This document shows positions 15,680 to 44,746 of a stretch of DNA of 64,000 nucleotides, piece after piece. Positions within the stretch are counted from its first letter, which is position 1. The number at the start of each line of letters is the position of its first letter. The stretch is from Rickettsiales bacterium. Its GTDB lineage: Bacteria > Pseudomonadota > Alphaproteobacteria > G027485855. Made by a program: the position numbers and the translations under genes. The notes below the pieces were generated by a model. That model made no database searches. It was not told the origin of the DNA and worked only from the letters and a program-made list of their open reading frames with translations. The stretch covers positions 186,001-250,000 of the forward strand of contig JAIXQD010000030.1 in assembly GCA_027485855.1 (NCBI GenBank), given 5' to 3'.

Positions 15680-16582
15680 CTATAAATACAGGCTTTCTTG
15701 CATGGTTGTGGCCAGCCTTGGTGGTGCGGTGGGTTTTGGCTGGCTCAGCTCTTGCCATTGGCTGGCAGGCAGTCTTGCGCGGCTATACCAATTGGGGCCT
15801 TGTGCTTTAAGCAGCACATCTTTGCCGCGATTTTCTACATCAACAGCGGCAAGCCTTTGCCGCATTTCGCTGGGGTGCAGCTCGCGCATTTTTTGGGCAT
15901 ATTTATCGGAGCATTCGTCTAAGGCGCTTTTTGCGGCTAAAGAAACCTCAAGCGGGTCGCTATGGTTTGTCACCAAAGCGCGCAGCGTATCGACAAACAT
16001 ATAATGGCTTTTGCTTTTTGGCGGTTTTTCTTCAAAGCCGACCGTATGAATCTGGCTGGCTTGTGCGCCCATGATGTTGCCCCATTGTGCCAGGGTAATT
16101 GGGCCATCAAACAAGCCTGGGTCGATAACCATGGTTTGCACCGTGCCATCCATCTGTTGCACAGGCACAGTGACGGCCACATGCCACCACCAGGTGGTTT
16201 GATCGGCAGACAGAAATTGCGGTTGCAGCAGATTGCCGTGTTCATCTTCAAAGGCCCAGGCGCGCCCTGGTTCTATGCCCATGCGGCGCAAATCTTCGCC
16301 CATGAGTTGGGCGCGGGCGTAGCATAAATCGTAAATATAGGCGAATTTATATTCGGCTTTATTGGCCAGAACATCAAAAGCCGCCAAAGCTTCAGCTTCG
16401 CTTAGGGCTTTGGGTGTTTGTGCCGGCGGCGGCGGGGTTTGGTCTAACTGTGGCTCTCGGGGGCCGCCTTTAAGGATATATAAATCGCCATTCATCGAGC
16501 TGCCGCTGAGGCTGATGGGCTCAGTCAAAAACTTAGCCATAGACTTAAAAAAATCGAGGATAGGGGCAGCTTTCGTGGCCAT
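15680..16582 (-). CDS. Protein-glutamine-deamidase-like protein with Cys-His-Asp triad
   Basis: A 300-residue protein without a signal peptide. After a proline-rich linker (about 48-58) it shows the papain/transglutaminase-like order I associate with the bacterial protein-glutaminase family: a cysteine motif YDLCYARAQLMGEDLRRMGI (Cys87), a histidine strand TTWWWHVAVTVP (His134) and an aspartate strand MVIDPGLFDGPITLAQW (Asp154). Members deamidate protein glutamines or belong to related uncharacterised groups; the substrate here is unknown. The C-terminal third (to about 300) has no match I recognise. Its ATG overlaps the stop of the 97-residue gene upstream by one base, so the two are probably co-translated. 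Family assignment is from memory of the motif pattern. Confidence 0.6.
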   Translation of the reverse strand: MATKAAPILDFFKSMAKFLTEPISLSGSSMNGDLYILKGGPREPQLDQTPPPPAQTPKALSEAEALAAFDVLANKAEYKFAYIYDLCYARAQLMGEDLRRMGIEPGRAWAFEDEHGNLLQPQFLSADQTTWWWHVAVTVPVQQMDGTVQTMVIDPGLFDGPITLAQWGNIMGAQASQIHTVGFEEKPPKSKSHYMFVDTLRALVTNHSDPLEVSLAAKSALDECSDKYAQKMRELHPSEMRQRLAAVDVENRGKDVLLKAQGPNWYSRARLPASQWQELSQPKPTAPPRLATTMQESLYL

Positions 16583-32872: not shown

Positions 32873-35113
32873 ATGCTCAGATTTTGCCCCAATCAATTGG
32901 TGCGTCAATTAGTGCGCCAATTGGCGTCTAAGCGTGGTGCGGTGCTGCCGATGGTGGCGTTAAGCTTTATGGCCTTGTCGGGCTTTGTCGGGCTTGGCAT
33001 TGATGTGGGGCGCGTTAAAACCGCCGAGTCGCGTCTGGCCAATGCGCTTGATGCGGCAGCGCTGGCGGTGAGTAATAAAATAAATAGCAGCGCCGATTTA
33101 AAGATTGAGGTTGAGCGTTATTTAGATCTCAATTTTGTTTCTACCACAGCGGGCGCCACGCTCACTTGGGTTAATGTTGAGAAAGCCAATAATAATACGG
33201 TGGTCAAGCTAGATGCGCGCGCTAAGGTTGATACAACTTTTATGCGCCTTTTTGGCATTAATGAGCGCGAATTTGCCGCACACAGTGAGGTCACGCGCGA
33301 AAATCGTGGCATGGAGCTGGTCTTGGTGCTGGATGTGACCGGCTCGATGTGGGGCAATAATAAATATATTTCGTTGCGCAATGCCGCAACCGATCTTATC
33401 AATATTGTTTTTGGCGATAATAGCAGCCTTGATAATTTATTTGTGGGCGTGGTGCCTTATAGCACTGCGGTTAATATTGGCCCAAGTCGTGAGGCTTGGG
33501 TGCAAAATCTCGATCTCACGCGTTATCCAAGCTCATATCCTGCGGCAGCCACCAAATGGAAGGGCTGTGTTGAAGAGCGCCTAACCCCACAAGATGTCAG
33601 CGATGCGCCACCGCAAGCCGGCAATAGTGGCGCACAAATTGCCAGCCGCTTTCCGATGTATTTTTGGGCCGATACAGTGGCTGCCCAAGATAATAATTGG
33701 ATTAGCGATGGCGTCATTAGCATCAATCTAACCAATAGTGGCAATGGTTATGTCAGCGCCCCCACTGTCACACTCACGGGCGGTGATGGCACAGGCGCCA
33801 CTGCCACTGCTAACCTTGCGGGTAATGGCACATTGTCTAGCATCACTGTTGCTAACCCGGGTGAGGGCTATACCGTGGCACCAACCGTGACTTTTACCGG
33901 CGGCAATGCGGCGCTGGCCAGCGGCACTGCGGCTATCAGTAATGGGCGCTTAAGCAGCATTACGGTGACACAAGCGGGCGCCGGCTATACCACAGCACCA
34001 ACCGTAACCATAACAGGTGGTGGTGTGCAGCAGGCCACAGCGACAGCCACTGTGAGTGGTGGGCGGGTTACGTCTATTACAGTCACCAATGGCGGGCAAG
34101 GCTATACCAGCGCGCCTAGCATTAGCTTTAGTGGTGGTGGGGGCAGCTCGGCTGCGGCCACAGCCATTGTCAGTAATGGCCGCATTACTTCAATTAATGT
34201 CACCAATCAGGGGCGTAATTATACGTCTGCGCCAACAGTCAATGTAAGCACCAGCGCCGTGCAGCAGGCGGTTGCCCGCGCTAACATCAGCAATGGCCGC
34301 GTCACTAGTTTTACTATAACGCAGCAGGGGCGTGGTTATACCAGCGTGCCCACCGTGACGCTGACGGGTGGCGTGGTGATACAAGCCTTTACGCCAGCCA
34401 CGGCCACAGCCACCGTTGGCTCGGCGGTAACGCTCAATGAAAGCGCTGGCTATAGCGACTCTGCGGCGCGTGGCCCCAATGTCGGTTGCCCCAATGAGGT
34501 TCTGCCCTTTACCAGCAACAAACAAACCACCTTAGATTATATCGCCACATTAGTGCCGTGGAATAAGGGCGGTACGATGTCGAATATCGGCATGGCTTGG
34601 GGCTGGCGCATGATTTCGCCTTTGTGGCGTGGCGTGGGCTGGGGGCATCAGCAGGTGAATGGCGAAAATATTTTGCCCTTGGACTATAACAGCCCGCTGA
34701 TGGATAAGGTGGTGGTGCTGATGACCGATGGTGAAAACCAATTTTACGATAGCATCGGCGCCGACCCATTTTATTCGGACTATACTTCAATGTTGCGTTT
34801 GGGTTTAACCACCGATGGCGGGCGGAGCGATATTAATAGCCGCGATTGGGATACCTCACGCCGCGCGCTTAATAATAAAACCGCGCAACTCTGCACGGCG
34901 ATGAAAGCCGCTGGAATTACCATTTATACTGTCACTTTTCAGCTCGGTAATAACACCGCCCAAAACGAGGCGCGCACCATGTTTCGTAATTGTGCCAGCA
35001 AGCCCGAATATTATTTTGACGCTGAGAGCCAAGCCGGTGGCGCCACTGTCGATTTGCGCACGGCCTTTAAACAAATCGGCGATAGCTTGGCCAATTTACA
35101 TATCAGCCGGTAA
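32873..35113 (+). CDS. TadG-like protein with a split von Willebrand A domain
   Basis: A 746-residue exported protein. The TadG-type N-terminus (RGAVLPMVALSFMALSGFVG, then DVGRVKTAESRLANALDAAA) is followed by a vWA domain starting ELVLVLDVTGSMW (MIDAS Asp/Thr/Ser at about 154-158). The domain is interrupted at about residues 282-519 by six copies of a 38-40 residue beta repeat, then resumes with KVVVLMTDGENQFYD and ITIYTVTFQLG. GGGAGG precedes the ATG. A small duplication (LVRQLVRQL) is seen at residues 9-17. The last 18 bp overlap the histidine kinase gene on the opposite strand. It is probably a minor tip or adhesion component of a Tad-type system. Confidence 0.85.
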   Translation: MLRFCPNQLVRQLVRQLASKRGAVLPMVALSFMALSGFVGLGIDVGRVKTAESRLANALDAAALAVSNKINSSADLKIEVERYLDLNFVSTTAGATLTWVNVEKANNNTVVKLDARAKVDTTFMRLFGINEREFAAHSEVTRENRGMELVLVLDVTGSMWGNNKYISLRNAATDLINIVFGDNSSLDNLFVGVVPYSTAVNIGPSREAWVQNLDLTRYPSSYPAAATKWKGCVEERLTPQDVSDAPPQAGNSGAQIASRFPMYFWADTVAAQDNNWISDGVISINLTNSGNGYVSAPTVTLTGGDGTGATATANLAGNGTLSSITVANPGEGYTVAPTVTFTGGNAALASGTAAISNGRLSSITVTQAGAGYTTAPTVTITGGGVQQATATATVSGGRVTSITVTNGGQGYTSAPSISFSGGGGSSAAATAIVSNGRITSINVTNQGRNYTSAPTVNVSTSAVQQAVARANISNGRVTSFTITQQGRGYTSVPTVTLTGGVVIQAFTPATATATVGSAVTLNESAGYSDSAARGPNVGCPNEVLPFTSNKQTTLDYIATLVPWNKGGTMSNIGMAWGWRMISPLWRGVGWGHQQVNGENILPLDYNSPLMDKVVVLMTDGENQFYDSIGADPFYSDYTSMLRLGLTTDGGRSDINSRDWDTSRRALNNKTAQLCTAMKAAGITIYTVTFQLGNNTAQNEARTMFRNCASKPEYYFDAESQAGGATVDLRTAFKQIGDSLANLHISR
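33718..34430 (+). repeat. Six-copy beta repeat inside the TadG-like gene
   Basis: Each unit runs GYTSAPTVTLTGG, a variable alanine/threonine stretch, then NGRVTSITVTNGG. Copies start at GYVSAP, GYTVAP, GYTTAP, GYTSAP, NYTSAP and GYTSVP. DNA copies differ at many third positions, so the array is not brand new. Similar GY-repeat strands occur in phage tail and surface proteins. Confidence 0.9.
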
Positions 35114-39670: not shown

Positions 39671-39688
39671 ATAAAGTAAATTGTCACT

Positions 39689-39712
39689 AGGCGCTTTCGC
39701 CTTTAAGCGCCT
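39689..39712. repeat. Perfect inverted repeat between convergent genes
   Basis: AGGCGCTT (39689-39696) and AAGCGCCT (39705-39712) are exact complements around an 8-nt loop, spanning the stop codon of the last paralogue gene. Without a T run on either side it is not a standard terminator. Related, less perfect versions sit at the other paralogue boundaries (about 40398, 41168 and 41890). Confidence 0.7.
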
Positions 39713-40386
39713 TCACCGGGGGCGGCCCCAGGGAGGCGCACTGTCACGCGCTTGTCACCAATAGTGCTGCGCGCTGGCCGGATGGCTGGCTCTATAACGG
39801 GTGCAGCAACAGCAATGGGTGCGGCTAATTGTGCGGGCTCGGCCTTTGCTTTTTGTGCTGCTTTTGCGGCGGCTTTTTCTGCTGCTTTTTCTGCTGCGGG
39901 GGCTTGCTTTTCTTGCGCCAGCACGGGGTTGCCAAACACAAGCTTAATGGGCGCAGTAATAGTTTGTACAAATGCTTGTTTGAGGCTGTCGGAACCTTCG
40001 GCGGCTTTCATGCTATTTTTAACCACAAAACTAATTGGCCATAAAAGCGGTGAAGCGATCGGCGCAAAGAGCAAGAAGCCAGTTAAAAAAGCCTGCCCTT
40101 TGTTATTTTTGTAGGAGATATTTTCAATTTTATTCTCTTCCCATTTATAAAAATCTGATGAATTCTCATCTGCTATAGCTCCTCGAAGGAGGCCTAACAC
40201 TACTGCGCCAAAGCCGACACCCAAACCCCATAAGGGTAAGCCCGCTATAAAGGCCAGTGCCAGCCCTGCCAAAAGCGGCACGCCAAGCCAGCCAAAAAAG
40301 ATACCAGCGGTGACACCATTATCGGCTGTTTTAGCTAATTGCTTTAGCCAATCTTCTTTGCTGATAGTTTGTGCGTGGTCGCTCAT
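39703..40386 (-). CDS. Tandem membrane paralogue 1 of 4, unknown function
   Basis: A 227-residue protein. It opens TISKEDWLKQLAKTADNGVT, has a two-helix hydrophobic hairpin (about 26-68), then YKWEENKIENISYKNNKGQA, a third helix GFLLFAPIASPLLWPISFVV, and NPVLAQEKQAPAAEKAAEKA. A linker rich in alanine, lysine and proline leads to the shared tail RSTIGDKRVTVRLPGAAPGE. No signal peptide or known domain. It is last in the minus-strand operon and convergent with the DUF4345 gene (32-bp gap). Confidence 0.75.
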   Translation of the reverse strand: MSDHAQTISKEDWLKQLAKTADNGVTAGIFFGWLGVPLLAGLALAFIAGLPLWGLGVGFGAVVLGLLRGAIADENSSDFYKWEENKIENISYKNNKGQAFLTGFLLFAPIASPLLWPISFVVKNSMKAAEGSDSLKQAFVQTITAPIKLVFGNPVLAQEKQAPAAEKAAEKAAAKAAQKAKAEPAQLAAPIAVAAPVIEPAIRPARSTIGDKRVTVRLPGAAPGEGA

Positions 40387-40411
40387 GGGTGCTCCTTAAG
40401 CGCTTTCGCTT

Positions 40412-41155
40412 TTATGCGCCTTCACCGGGGGCGGCCCCAGGGAGGCGCACTGTAACGCCTTTATTGCCAATGGTGCTGCGGGCTGGGCGGATGGGCGGTT
40501 CGCTTATAACAGGCGCGGCAACAGCAATGGCAGGTGCGGCCAATGTGGTGGCAGGTGCAGTTGTGTCAGGCACTGCAATTTGCATGGGCGCTAATTTTGC
40601 TTTTTGTGCGGCTTTTGCGGCCGCTTCGGCTTGCTTGCGCTCTTGCGCAATGGGGCTGGTAAAAATATTGGCCGCCATGGCTTTTATGCCAGCTAAAAAA
40701 CTGGTTTTAGCATTGCCAGCATTTTCGGCGGCTTTCATGTTGCCTTTAATAATAAAACTCGCTGGCCATAATAAGGGCGATGCCACGGGCAAGCACAGCA
40801 GCAGGCCAATAAAAAACGCCTCAAATTTATTACGTTCAGGGTTGAGGTTATCAATTTTCTTTTCTTCCCATACCAGAAAACGTTGAGGCTCCCCACGAGA
40901 CTTGCGTCCTTCGTCAGCACTTACTTGGGCCATAGCGCTGAAGGCACCAAGCAGAGCGCTGCCAAAGCCAAGAAGGAGGCCCGCCCCCGGCAGGCCAAAA
41001 ACTAAACCCAAGGTGAGACCAGCTAAAATCGGCACAGCAATCAGCCCTATAAGCAGCCCGGTCACGGCACCACTGGTAGCAACTTTTGCTAACTCTTCTT
41101 GCCACGCTTTTGCTTTATCGCTGGTGGGGGCGCTATTTGCGGTGGTGTTGCTCAT
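40412..41155 (-). CDS. Tandem membrane paralogue 2 of 4, unknown function
   Basis: A 247-residue protein, the most divergent of the four. The N-terminus (KAWQEELAKVATSGAVTGLL) leads into a helical hairpin. Then come VWEEKKIDNLNPERNKFEAF, a third helix (LLLCLPVASPLLWPASFIIK) and MKAAENAGNAKTSFLAG. The C-terminal linker ends in the same tail, RSTIGNKGVTVRLPGAAPGE. The 25-nt gap to the gene upstream contains an AAGGAG site and repeats the boundary sequence seen between the other copies. Confidence 0.75.
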   Translation of the reverse strand: MSNTTANSAPTSDKAKAWQEELAKVATSGAVTGLLIGLIAVPILAGLTLGLVFGLPGAGLLLGFGSALLGAFSAMAQVSADEGRKSRGEPQRFLVWEEKKIDNLNPERNKFEAFFIGLLLCLPVASPLLWPASFIIKGNMKAAENAGNAKTSFLAGIKAMAANIFTSPIAQERKQAEAAAKAAQKAKLAPMQIAVPDTTAPATTLAAPAIAVAAPVISEPPIRPARSTIGNKGVTVRLPGAAPGEGA

Positions 41156-41180
41156 CTTTGCTCCTTATGCGCTTTCACCT

Positions 41181-41876
41181 TTATGCGCCTTCACCAGGCG
41201 CGGCCCCAGGGAGGCGCACTGTCACGCGGTTATTGCCAATGGTGCTGCGCGCTGGGCGGATGGGCAGCTCGGCAATAACCGGTGCGGCAACAGCAATGGC
41301 GGGTGCGGGCGTATCGGTTGTGGTAATTTGCACGGGCTCGGCTTTTGCTAATTCTGCAGCTTTTTCTGCGGCGGCGGCTTGTTTCTCTTGCGCCAGTACG
41401 GGGTTGCCAAAAAGCGTTTTGCCAACCGTGCTGATGCCGAGAATGGGTGCAGTAATGGTTTGTGCGGCCGCTTGTTTTAAACTGCTAGAATTTTCTGTGG
41501 CCTTCATGCTGTTTTTAACAATAAAACTGATTGGCCATAAAAGGGGTGAAAGGGCAGGGGCATGCAGTAAGAAGCCAGTTAGGTAAGCCTGCGTTCTGTT
41601 TTTTTTGTACGAAATATTTTTAACTTTATCACTTTCCCATTTATAAAAACCTTGCCGGTTTGCTAGTAACATGCCCAGGCTACCTAATAGAACAGCGCCA
41701 ACACCGATGTTCAAAGCCAATCCGGGCAGGCCCGCAACAAAAGCCAGTGCCAGCCCCACCACAAGCGGCAAGCCAAGCCAACCAAACGCCAGGCCATGCA
41801 TCGAACCATCTTCGGCAATTTTGGCTAATTTTTTTTGCCAATCTTCTTTGCTGATAGTTTGTTCTGGGTCGCTCAT
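41181..41876 (-). CDS. Tandem membrane paralogue 3 of 4, unknown function
   Basis: A 231-residue protein. It has TISKEDWQKKLAKIAEDGSM, a hydrophobic hairpin (GWLGLPLVVGLALAFVAGLP and on), then YKWESDKVKNISYKKNRTQA and a third helix GFLLHAPALSPLLWPISFIV. VGKTLFGNPVLAQEKQAAAA follows, with a shorter alanine linker and the tail RSTIGNNRVTVRLPGAAPGE. Close to copies 1 and 4 at the DNA level, which suggests recent duplication or gene conversion. Confidence 0.75.
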   Translation of the reverse strand: MSDPEQTISKEDWQKKLAKIAEDGSMHGLAFGWLGLPLVVGLALAFVAGLPGLALNIGVGAVLLGSLGMLLANRQGFYKWESDKVKNISYKKNRTQAYLTGFLLHAPALSPLLWPISFIVKNSMKATENSSSLKQAAAQTITAPILGISTVGKTLFGNPVLAQEKQAAAAEKAAELAKAEPVQITTTDTPAPAIAVAAPVIAELPIRPARSTIGNNRVTVRLPGAAPGEGA

Positions 41877-41901
41877 GCTTGCTCCTTATGCGCTTTCACC
41901 T

Positions 41902-42555
41902 TTAGGCGCCTTCACCGGGGGCGGCACCCGGCAAGCGCACTGTCACGCGGTTATTGCCAATGGTGCTGCGCGCCGGGCGGACGGGTGCATTTGCGACTGC
42001 TTCTATAACGGGTGCGGCAACAGCAATGGCGGGTGCGGGCAATTGTGCGGGTTCGGCCTTTGCTTTTTGTGCGGCTTTTGCGGCGGCTTTTTCTGCTGCG
42101 GCGGCTTGTTTCTCTTGCGCCAGCACGGGGTTGCCAAACAGATCTTTGCCGGCAGCGACTATGCCGGCTCCTTCGGTAATTTTTATAGTGTTTTTAACCA
42201 CAAAACTTATTGGCCATAACAGGGGCGACAAAACTGGTGCAGCTAACAAGAAACCAGTTAAGTAGGCTTGCACTTTATTTTTTTTGTAAGAGATATTCTC
42301 AATTTTATCTTCTTCCCATTTATAGAAATTTGGACCGTCTGTAAATGGTAGGCGAAAGAGGCCTAAAACAATCGTACCAAGGCCGACACCCACACCCCAT
42401 AAGGGTAAGCCCGCTATAAAGCCCAGTGCCAAACCTGCCAAAAGCGGCACGCCAAGCCAGCCAAACATTGAGCCAGTATCAGCCCCATCTTCGGCAATTT
42501 TGGCTAATTTTTTTTGCCATTCTTCTTTGCTGATAGTTTTTGCTTGGTCGCTCAT
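41902..42555 (-). CDS. Tandem membrane paralogue 4 of 4, unknown function
   Basis: A 217-residue protein. It has TISKEEWQKKLAKIAEDGAD, helices at about 31-50 and 51-70, YKWEEDKIENISYKKNKVQA (about 78-97), a third helix GFLLAAPVLSPLLWPISFVV (101-120), DLFGNPVLAQEKQAAAAEKA, an Ala/Lys/Pro linker and the tail RSTIGNNRVTVRLPGAAPGE. It is the first of the four in transcription order, 11 nt after the 187-residue gene, with AAGGA before its ATG. Both ends of the chain likely face the cytoplasm or periplasm unequally (three helices); orientation cannot be decided. Confidence 0.75.
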   Translation of the reverse strand: MSDQAKTISKEEWQKKLAKIAEDGADTGSMFGWLGVPLLAGLALGFIAGLPLWGVGVGLGTIVLGLFRLPFTDGPNFYKWEEDKIENISYKKNKVQAYLTGFLLAAPVLSPLLWPISFVVKNTIKITEGAGIVAAGKDLFGNPVLAQEKQAAAAEKAAAKAAQKAKAEPAQLPAPAIAVAAPVIEAVANAPVRPARSTIGNNRVTVRLPGAAPGEGA

Positions 42556-42566
42556 GCCACGCTTCC

Positions 42567-43130
42567 TTATGATTGGCTCTCTTGCGGCTCAGATTGTGCA
42601 GCGGTTTTGCTGGCACGTTGCGGCATGTTTTGCTGATTATTGCCAGTGAAGTTTTGGCCGATATATTTTTGGCCGATATATTTTTGGCTGGTGTTTAGTT
42701 GTGCGCGTAGCTCGGCTTCAAGCACGGCAATTTCAAGCATTTTGGGGGTCATGAGCGTTACTCTTGGCGCGCCCATAGTTTCGCGGGCAAAGAGCGTGGC
42801 GGGCAAAAGTGCCGGCGCATAAAATATGCCGCATGCAAAGGCGTAAAATAATGTGGCGATAGTGCCGCGGCCTTCCAGCTTGCTTTCGGCAAAATCGGCC
42901 TCTTGCCATAATTCAATCAGCTGGCAATAGCGCTGCGTTGTGGCGTTGCTCCAAAGGCTGCTGATGCTGATGCCAAAGCAAAGCGCAGCATAAGTCAGCG
43001 CACAAAGGCCCAGCAATGGCATGCTGCCCACTATGCTTGATGCAGCATAAGCAATAACCGCGCAAATCAGCAAATTGCCGGCAAAGGCGCTGGCAAGGGC
43101 GGTGTCTTTAGCGAGATTTTTTTGAGTCAT
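42567..43130 (-). CDS. Three-helix membrane protein related in layout to the tandem paralogues
   Basis: A 187-residue protein of unknown function. Helices at about 13-35 and 38-60 form a hairpin. A polar loop containing LIELWQEADFAESKLEGRGT leads to a third helix (ATLFYAFACGIFYAPALLPA), then a polar tail. The W-x3-D-F motif and the third helix match the position of YKWEEDKI and LLAAPVLSPLLW in the four paralogues. The tail has a 5-residue duplication (KYIGQKYIGQNFTG) encoded by 15-bp repeats near 42655-42690. The ATG overlaps the stop of the gene upstream. Confidence 0.7.
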   Translation of the reverse strand: MTQKNLAKDTALASAFAGNLLICAVIAYAASSIVGSMPLLGLCALTYAALCFGISISSLWSNATTQRYCQLIELWQEADFAESKLEGRGTIATLFYAFACGIFYAPALLPATLFARETMGAPRVTLMTPKMLEIAVLEAELRAQLNTSQKYIGQKYIGQNFTGNNQQNMPQRASKTAAQSEPQESQS

Positions 43131-43618
43131 TCTGGGCTCCGATGGTAAGTCAGCATCTGTGCATGATGGCGCAGCTGCGGTTGATTATGTTGCATGTAAA
43201 TGGGTGCCATTTGCGCCGGCATTTGCGCTGGTTGTGTTGCTTTATCACGCAAATAAATATGCAGGTTCGCGGTGAGCGGTGCATAGCTTAGGCCGCGAAA
43301 AAACCCGTAAAGCAGCGCCAGCCACAAGGGCAAGCCCGCCAGCGCTACGGGCGAAAAATCTTGCTGGCTCCATTGGTCGAGCTGTTGTTGATAATTGCTG
43401 TGCTGCTGGTTCAATGCCGCAGTCATTTGCCCATAGGCGGTAAATAAACTGAACAGACTATAAATAAGCAGCAAAAACAGACCGATGCCGATGTTATCGA
43501 TGTGCGCTATAGCAAAGAAAAACAGCCACATAGGCAGCAGCACAGCACCAAAAAGCAGCCCCACAATAGCGGCGCGTAAGCTAAGCATATGTATTTTGGC
43601 AAAATTTGAGCTTTCCAT
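43127..43618 (-). CDS. Three-helix membrane protein, first gene of the operon
   Basis: A 163-residue protein of unknown function. A hydrophobic hairpin (about 14-37 and 42-63) is followed by a glutamine-rich loop (AALNQQHSNYQQQLDQWSQQ, then DFSP) and a third helix (PLWLALLYGFFRGLSYAPL). The C-terminus is polar, with methionine, glutamine and histidine. DQWSQQDF matches the W-x2/3-D motif of the genes downstream and LSYAPL matches FYAPAL in the 187-residue protein. It ends in ATGA with that gene. It is divergent from the secreted protein at 43745, with about 125 bp between. Confidence 0.7.
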   Translation of the reverse strand: MESSNFAKIHMLSLRAAIVGLLFGAVLLPMWLFFFAIAHIDNIGIGLFLLLIYSLFSLFTAYGQMTAALNQQHSNYQQQLDQWSQQDFSPVALAGLPLWLALLYGFFRGLSYAPLTANLHIYLRDKATQPAQMPAQMAPIYMQHNQPQLRHHAQMLTYHRSPE

Positions 43619-43744
43619 GTCTTATTTTTAACAAATTGTTAGGCTAGTTACCAATGCGGAATTAGTTGCATCGGCAATGAGGGGCAATGTTAACCATTTT
43701 GCTGCATCTTAGTGGCAGATTTCGGCTTTAGCAGGATGATTAAA

Positions 43745-44746
43745 ATGAAAAAATTCAAACTTACGCATCATCTTTCGGCTTTTGGTTTATTGCTGGCGCT
43801 GCTGTTAGCTCCGGCACAGCTTATGGCGCAAGAATTGCTACCCGACCCTATCGATGATTGGCAGCGGCCAAAACTAAGCTTAGAGCAGCTTAATGATGTG
43901 GCCCCTTATCGCGAAATAATGAAACAATTTGGCGTGCCGCAATTGGTTATGGCTACATTTGGCGAAAATACGCAGCACTATGTTTTTGCGGGCCCCGATG
44001 ATTTGCCGGCCACAGCCCCCATGCAAGTTTCGGTGACGCGCAATTTGCAGCGTGAGGCCGATTATGCCAGCGCCAAAGCTGCGGCCGAAGCGATGCTGGC
44101 GGTCACCCGTGCGGCCTTGCCTGAGGGCGCCAAACTAGATGTGGCCGCAGGTGCTGAAGCGCCGCTGTTTTTAGTGCAAAATCCTGATGAGGCACCAAAC
44201 GATGCCAAGCTTTATTTTGTGCAAGAGCCCGGTGTGCTGACGCATATAGAGCTGCAAGCCAAAGAGGGCACGGCATTAAGTGATGCCGCGCTTGGCACAT
44301 TGCTAGAGCTTTATAATAAGCTACAGCAAAGCCAAAGCGTGGCCGAAAATGACCGTCATGTGCAGTGTGCCACCGAGCAAGCTTTGCCCAGCGACATTCC
44401 CTATGGCCGTTATGTGCGCAGTGCTGGCCGCTATGATGGTAATTTAGTCTTTGCGGCTTGCGCTGAGGGCGGCATGATATTTAAATTATCGGCGCGCGAG
44501 GGTTTTATTATCGGCCCCAATGACAACCCCAGAACCCCTGATGATTTTGAGCGCTTTGCCGAATTTAGCGGCTGGCTCAGCCGTACCGAAAAAGGCTGGC
44601 AATCTGAGGCACAAGATTGCGCCTTAGAGTTTGTCTTTGATGCCGATGTGGTGACAGTGCAACCAAAAAACGAGTCGCGCTGCGGCCCCTTTAGCCTTTT
44701 TGGCGAATATGGCTTTGCCGGCCGCGCGCCCAGCTCAGTTGAGTAG
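43745..44746 (+). CDS. Secreted or periplasmic protein with four cysteines, unknown function
   Basis: From the ATG at 43745 the protein has 333 residues. It opens with a clear signal peptide (MKKFKLTHHLSAFGLLLALL, ending AQLMAQ). The frame is open to 43712, but those residues do not fit a signal peptide and AGGA lies upstream of 43745. The mature protein has two halves: a first part with VAPYREIMKQFGVPQLVMAT, and a second with four cysteines (HVQCATEQ, VFAACAEGG, AQDCALEF, SRCGPF) that could form two disulfides. No family recognised. The last codons run into a four-copy 24-bp repeat. Confidence 0.75.
   Translation: MKKFKLTHHLSAFGLLLALLLAPAQLMAQELLPDPIDDWQRPKLSLEQLNDVAPYREIMKQFGVPQLVMATFGENTQHYVFAGPDDLPATAPMQVSVTRNLQREADYASAKAAAEAMLAVTRAALPEGAKLDVAAGAEAPLFLVQNPDEAPNDAKLYFVQEPGVLTHIELQAKEGTALSDAALGTLLELYNKLQQSQSVAENDRHVQCATEQALPSDIPYGRYVRSAGRYDGNLVFAACAEGGMIFKLSAREGFIIGPNDNPRTPDDFERFAEFSGWLSRTEKGWQSEAQDCALEFVFDADVVTVQPKNESRCGPFSLFGEYGFAGRAPSSVE

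Follow-up and report, generated by a model that had tools for sequence, protein, structure and literature searches.

The closest described systems are of two kinds. FtsZ carries a disordered linker of variable length that ends in a short conserved binding peptide (PMC12607630), and the chlamydial Inc proteins, which are type III secreted, combine a bilobed hydrophobic hairpin with many divergent members per genome (PMC3048545, PMC3290821). The tandem array described here, from a window of 64,000 nucleotides of a Rickettsiales bacterium, resembles FtsZ in its linker and terminal peptide and the Incs in its hairpins and its number of divergent members. FtsZ, however, is a soluble GTPase, whereas the carriers here are orphan membrane proteins, and the analogy is one of working, not of homology. 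Of the Inc features, the bilobed hydrophobic domain is present according to hydropathy, but no SctV was found in this flagellated alphaproteobacterium, and no family search matched the present proteins. DUF2456, CrgA and DUF2244 share a short hydrophobic stretch with them. The families are new orphans; the arrangement of anchor, linker and short motif is itself of a known kind and takes an unusual multi-locus form here.

Organization of the array

Six minus-strand ORFs make up the array; they run from 43618 to 39703 as F, E, A, B, C and D (Table 1). F and E overlap by 4 nt (ATGA), and the following gaps measure 11 nt (E-A) and 25 nt each (A-B, B-C, C-D), which confirms the six-gene operon with tiny gaps and an ATGA overlap described in an earlier note on this DNA. 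An AAGGA-type ribosome site precedes each of A-D and forms part of a repeated intergenic sequence of the type AAAGGTGAAAGCGCATAAGGAGCA that is held in the gaps between these genes. The hairpin just past the last stop is a variant of this conserved repeat; its fold has a z of -2.0, with 6 of 200 shuffles equally good, and it has no strong T run. In the other intergenic repeats of the array, the predicted RNA fold was not above shuffles.

Upstream of gene F, across an intergenic gap of 93 nt, lies a divergent gene (window 43712-44746, plus strand) for a 344-aa orphan with a signal-peptide-like start and without family match. The window further contains a TadE/TadG-like cluster (32873-35113, plus strand), including a large protein into which a series of degenerate GxGYTSAPTVTITGG repeats is inserted, and a gene (15680-16582, minus strand) whose 300-aa product has a domain matching Gln_deamidase_2 (protein glutaminase, PF18626) at E=1.3e-19.

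Table 1. Features of the array and of the second tandem array; positions refer to the window unless a contig is named.
Feature	Position	Strand	Description	Basis
Gene F	43127..43618	-	163 aa; hairpin membrane protein without shared tail; opens operon	ORF, homology to E
Gene E	42567..43130	-	187 aa; hairpin membrane protein without shared tail	ORF, E+F versus A-D profile
Gene A	41902..42555	-	217 aa; paralogue with tail	ORF, alignment, low-confidence AF2 model
Gene B	41181..41876	-	231 aa; paralogue with tail	ORF, alignment, codon comparison
Gene C	40412..41155	-	247 aa; paralogue with tail; most divergent body	ORF, alignment, codon comparison
Gene D	39703..40386	-	227 aa; paralogue with tail; closes array	ORF, alignment, codon comparison
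Tail of A	41905..42039	-	AP-rich linker and RPARSTIG..VTVRLPGAAPGEGA	alignments, own-genome tail search
Tail of B	41184..41309	-		alignment, own-genome tail search
Tail of C	40415..40540	-		alignment, own-genome tail search
Tail of D	39706..39825	-		alignment, own-genome tail search
Putative weak terminator or RNA end	39674..39702	-	hairpin just past last stop	pairing with gene D end
Second tandem array (C31)	L028 5246-8981 (contig C31), adjoining rpoN		four orphan membrane proteins	

Relationship of the six proteins

In a full-length alignment of A-D, the other three paralogues were 72, 75 and 56% identical to A. For E and F, ungapped comparison of the 52-residue segment from the W to the third helix gave a score of 62, against a local-shuffle mean of -4.8 (sd 7.7) and with 0 of 3000 shuffles as good; on this score the two are clearly homologous. 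The link of E and F to A-D is weaker than that between E and F, but supported: 25 of 3000 shuffles reached the score observed for E, the score of F alone lay within the shuffle range, with the predicted register as the best one, and hhalign placed the profile of E+F on that of A-D over 114 columns with P=1.3e-4. All six proteins share an ungapped frame in which W is followed by [SA]P at +31 and, ten positions beyond this, by K/R, so that the similarity around the W motif and the third helix, asserted before for the whole set, is kept in a proper alignment. We consider one common ancestry for all six proteins very probable on these comparisons, though not certain. In the third helix of A-D, codon comparison gave a pN (0.11-0.28) well under pS (0.53-0.77), so A-D are genuine coding genes under selection; the third helix is under purifying selection in old copies.

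Search for known families and relatives

None of the proteins matched Pfam or NCBIfam above the curated cut-off. PHROGs gave no credible family (best E=0.022) and neither did PADLOC, where the best match (E=3.7e-4) was to part of LeoBC and came from a single protein of the second array only; among PDB sequences no homologue was found, the best match (E=0.51) being due to chance. The best Pfam names, DUF2456, CrgA and DUF2244, all remained under the curated cut-off and are most likely chance matches of membrane segments; CrgA reached 14 bits over 36 residues in one paralogue only, where a full-length two-TM match needs 24.8 bits. No relatives were found in GTDB contigs, viral contigs, plasmids and phages, or by profile searches of 58 + 385 genomes of the class, all comparison genomes belonging to the same class only and seemingly none to the same order, family or genus; the weak class-genome matches (E 0.001-0.05) that were inspected were judged to be chance. 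The neighbouring IlvE had a best match of 65% identity in GTDB contigs, and the 80 flanks fetched in the IlvE search held no array-like ORFs. By these comparisons the lineage is isolated, a deep-branching alphaproteobacterium, and absence elsewhere therefore fits a young gene as well as an unsampled clade and does not tell the two apart. The earlier note knew of no family with this layout, and the family, PDB-sequence and genome searches were all negative in line with that statement, with no confident match to a characterised family; its suggestion to look for the same operon in related genomes was followed through class genomes, GTDB contigs and the 80 flanks, which yielded no second case.

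Predicted membrane topology

In 6 of 6 proteins, hydropathy gave a long hydrophobic stretch with two lobes and, in addition, a third hydrophobic stretch, from which their membrane location and topology are predicted. Single chains of A and F were modelled with AlphaFold (pLDDT 48.5 and 56.9, respectively, too low to support a fold search). In both low-confidence models, a helix hairpin leads into a third helix and then into a disordered tail. Being short and kinked at SPLLWP/YAP, the third segment may be re-entrant. In F, with model helices at residues 3-40, 43-85 and 98-127, the third helix carries Arg, His and Asn and makes a poor membrane span; the proposal of a hairpin plus third helix in every product agrees with hydropathy throughout and with the two models, but falls short for the third segment of F.

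Constraint and homogenization of the tail

As claimed before, the four tandem paralogues have one C-terminal tail in common: A-D (4 of 4) end in RPARSTIG-x3-VTVRLPGAAPGEGA, which E and F do not carry. Over the last 25 codons, pairs of A-D have a pN of 0.02-0.06 and a pS of 0.18-0.41. In pairs with C, tail pS (0.18-0.36) lies well below body pS, which is near saturation at about 0.65-0.72 (Fisher P 0.0009, 0.00015 and 0.010); the difference is borderline for A-B, and there is no significant drop for A-D and B-D. The unusually low tail pS with C implies that part of the tail's fixity comes from gene conversion or from 3' ends having been shared recently, and the 24-nt intergenic repeat downstream of the tails is conserved as well. 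The tail thus combines constraint at the protein level with homogenization at the DNA level. In the stretch past the third helix, pN nears pS in pairs with C, and this stretch behaves as expected of a free spacer.

Occurrence of the tail outside the window

The own genome (2.37 Mb in 34 contigs, assembly 97.8% complete) was searched with a profile of A-D, which gave a weak extra match on contig C31. Profile searches with the proteins and the tail, as proposed in the earlier note, returned no family and located the tail at two more loci of the genome, an observation outside the window that goes beyond that note: six further orphan membrane proteins end in a like tail, four on C31 and two on C6. 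On C31 they form a tandem array between a gene reading as rpoN and a HIT-like gene, and the proteins (260-293 aa, 24-27% identical to the first member) combine hydrophobic hairpins with an Ala-rich linker and finish in sequences such as IKPAVRTIGDSIKPPPATPTL; those on C6 end in LRPRAARIGAKFDVPNA and ARPLTTRVGRGVGEVPQV. Across the three loci, the tail consists of an Ala/Pro-rich linker followed by [KR]P-x(1-4)-[TR]-[IV]-G, beyond which only a few residues remain; on C6 the motif is degenerate (RIG, RVG where others have TIG). The bodies of A-D and the C31 proteins do not align, the tail being the sole matching block (hhalign P=2.3e-4), and those of the C6 proteins do not align to A-D either. 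At the DNA level, the tail of the second C31 gene (C31_2) matches the array with E=3e-10, the matches measuring 34-80 nt, and a 34-nt stretch of one C31 tail is near-identical to the array (94% identity).

In a held-out test, a tail profile from the window and C31 ranked both C6 tails over all 1597 background C-termini, a background drawn from mechanically called ORFs of 200 aa or more rather than from curated genes, and each of the two also beat every one of its 200 shuffles. A profile trained on a single locus (window or C31 alone) recovered the other loci, with 0-2 of the 1597 background ends equally good. These scores argue that the shared cross-locus tail is not due to chance. The regular expression [KR]P.{1,4}[TR][IV]G, which was fitted to the data and is descriptive only, occurs in 9 of the 10 tails and in 1 of the 1597 background ends. 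Nothing else credible in the genome was retrieved by the tail profiles; weak matches on C9, C19, C34 and C10 were inspected and rejected.

The first and the fourth C31 gene are each preceded by an AT-rich, promoter-like stretch of 35 nt with a sigma-54-like core; the two stretches are similar, and the sigma-54 site is good upstream of the first gene and weaker before the fourth. A sigma-54 promoter shared by the three loci was rejected, as neither the window nor C6 showed such a site. Genes for a protein with a YadA-type trimeric adhesin C-terminus (L047 9739-10929) and for an ankyrin-repeat protein (L047 4189-5679) were found upstream of the C31 array. Repeated proteins that combine an LPTE[YF] motif with an H-x-G motif late in the sequence lie in several copies near the C31 and C6 loci (L028 2634-3533, L047 8077-9613, L045 17481-17972); they have no Pfam match and are apparently another lineage-specific family. 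Directly downstream of the C6 tail pair, L045 8119-8793 (minus strand) encodes a 224-aa orphan hydrophobic protein without tail, perhaps the counterpart of E/F.

Discussion

We favour a reading, with a probability of roughly 0.4, in which the tail acts as a tethered docking peptide and brings many membrane anchors to a single common partner. The six genes would code for two related kinds of orphan inner-membrane protein, tail-less E/F and tailed A-D, the latter being part of a set of ten orphan membrane proteins with such tails, spread over three loci of the genome. Each member would consist of a helix-hairpin body, a flexible Ala/Pro-rich linker and a short C-terminal linear motif, by which unlike membrane anchors could recruit one common soluble partner in the manner of the FtsZ C-terminal peptide; E and F, lacking the tail, would be partners within this assembly. 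The array probably grew by tandem duplication, with 3' ends partly homogenized via recombination.

A short motif is kept across unlike carriers with a variable linker between, as in tethered docking peptides, and the recurrence of the tail on unlike bodies, its held-out recovery, its low pN, the spacer-like linker and the disordered tails of the low-confidence models all speak for docking. The earlier note had proposed a docking or sorting element from fixed tails and varied linkers. With homogenized tail DNA, that inference from fixity alone is too strong, and the low tail pS weakens it; the return of the motif on six orphans at two further loci strengthens the proposal, and we would regard this cross-locus motif as better evidence for docking than fixity in the array. 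Against docking, the homogenized tail DNA and the near-identical C31 stretch indicate that some of the spread may be functionless recombination, the C6 motif is degenerate and AlphaFold confidence is low. Moreover, should A-D span the membrane three times and the C31 and C6 proteins four times, their tails could end up on different sides of it, and the idea of a common partner would fail.

The same DNA-level signals are what would be seen if the tail had little function and were a low-complexity Ala/Pro end that gene conversion and segmental recombination had copied among genes: tail pS is far under body pS in pairs with C, the downstream 24-nt repeat is likewise conserved, and C31_2 shares its DNA matches with the array. 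We think this unlikely, though deserving serious weight, since tail pN/pS is about 0.1 and the divergent C31 and C6 tails still retain P..[TR][IV]G above the level of composition shuffles. That A-F form a hetero-oligomeric membrane complex, a channel or scaffold assembled through the hairpins, would agree with the overlap and short gaps of the operon, the related bodies and the conserved W and SPLLWP core; the tail would then be a mere solubility spacer, yet it is more conserved than a spacer requires and is common to unrelated bodies, and we hold this version to be quite unlikely.

Export is improbable in our view. Under this explanation the tail would be an export or sorting signal of exported, Inc-effector-like hairpin proteins, as the bilobed hydrophobic layout and the tandem clusters might suggest in a genome that also codes for ankyrin repeats, a YadA-type adhesin and a glutaminase-domain protein. 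In the 97.8% complete assembly, however, VirB4 (PF03135) is absent, while the control matches in Caulobacter, VipB was not found, and the sole SctV-like protein is the flagellar FlhA, which makes export by those three machines unlikely. A degron or protease-recognition tag setting the turnover of all ten proteins would account for a flexible tail near the C-terminus of unlike proteins. The last residues of a C-degron are usually fixed, however, whereas the ends here differ (GEGA, PTL, PNA, PQV) and the motif lies about 10-25 residues inside, and we rate the degron reading as highly improbable.

Extending the docking-peptide reading, we tentatively entertain a lineage-specific membrane system of at least ten proteins with at least two unrelated bodies at three loci, in which a common recruitment motif would gather modular anchors around a hub protein, the anchor set perhaps being a membrane microdomain or organelle-like scaffold. 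If the recruitment motif proves false, the tandem orphan array would still be a useful case of concerted evolution of gene ends. If it is true, one short peptide would tie together three orphan clusters that annotation leaves as unrelated hypotheticals, a single peptide pull-down would expose the common partner, and the set would provide a clear bacterial case of a linear motif shared across unlike membrane anchors.
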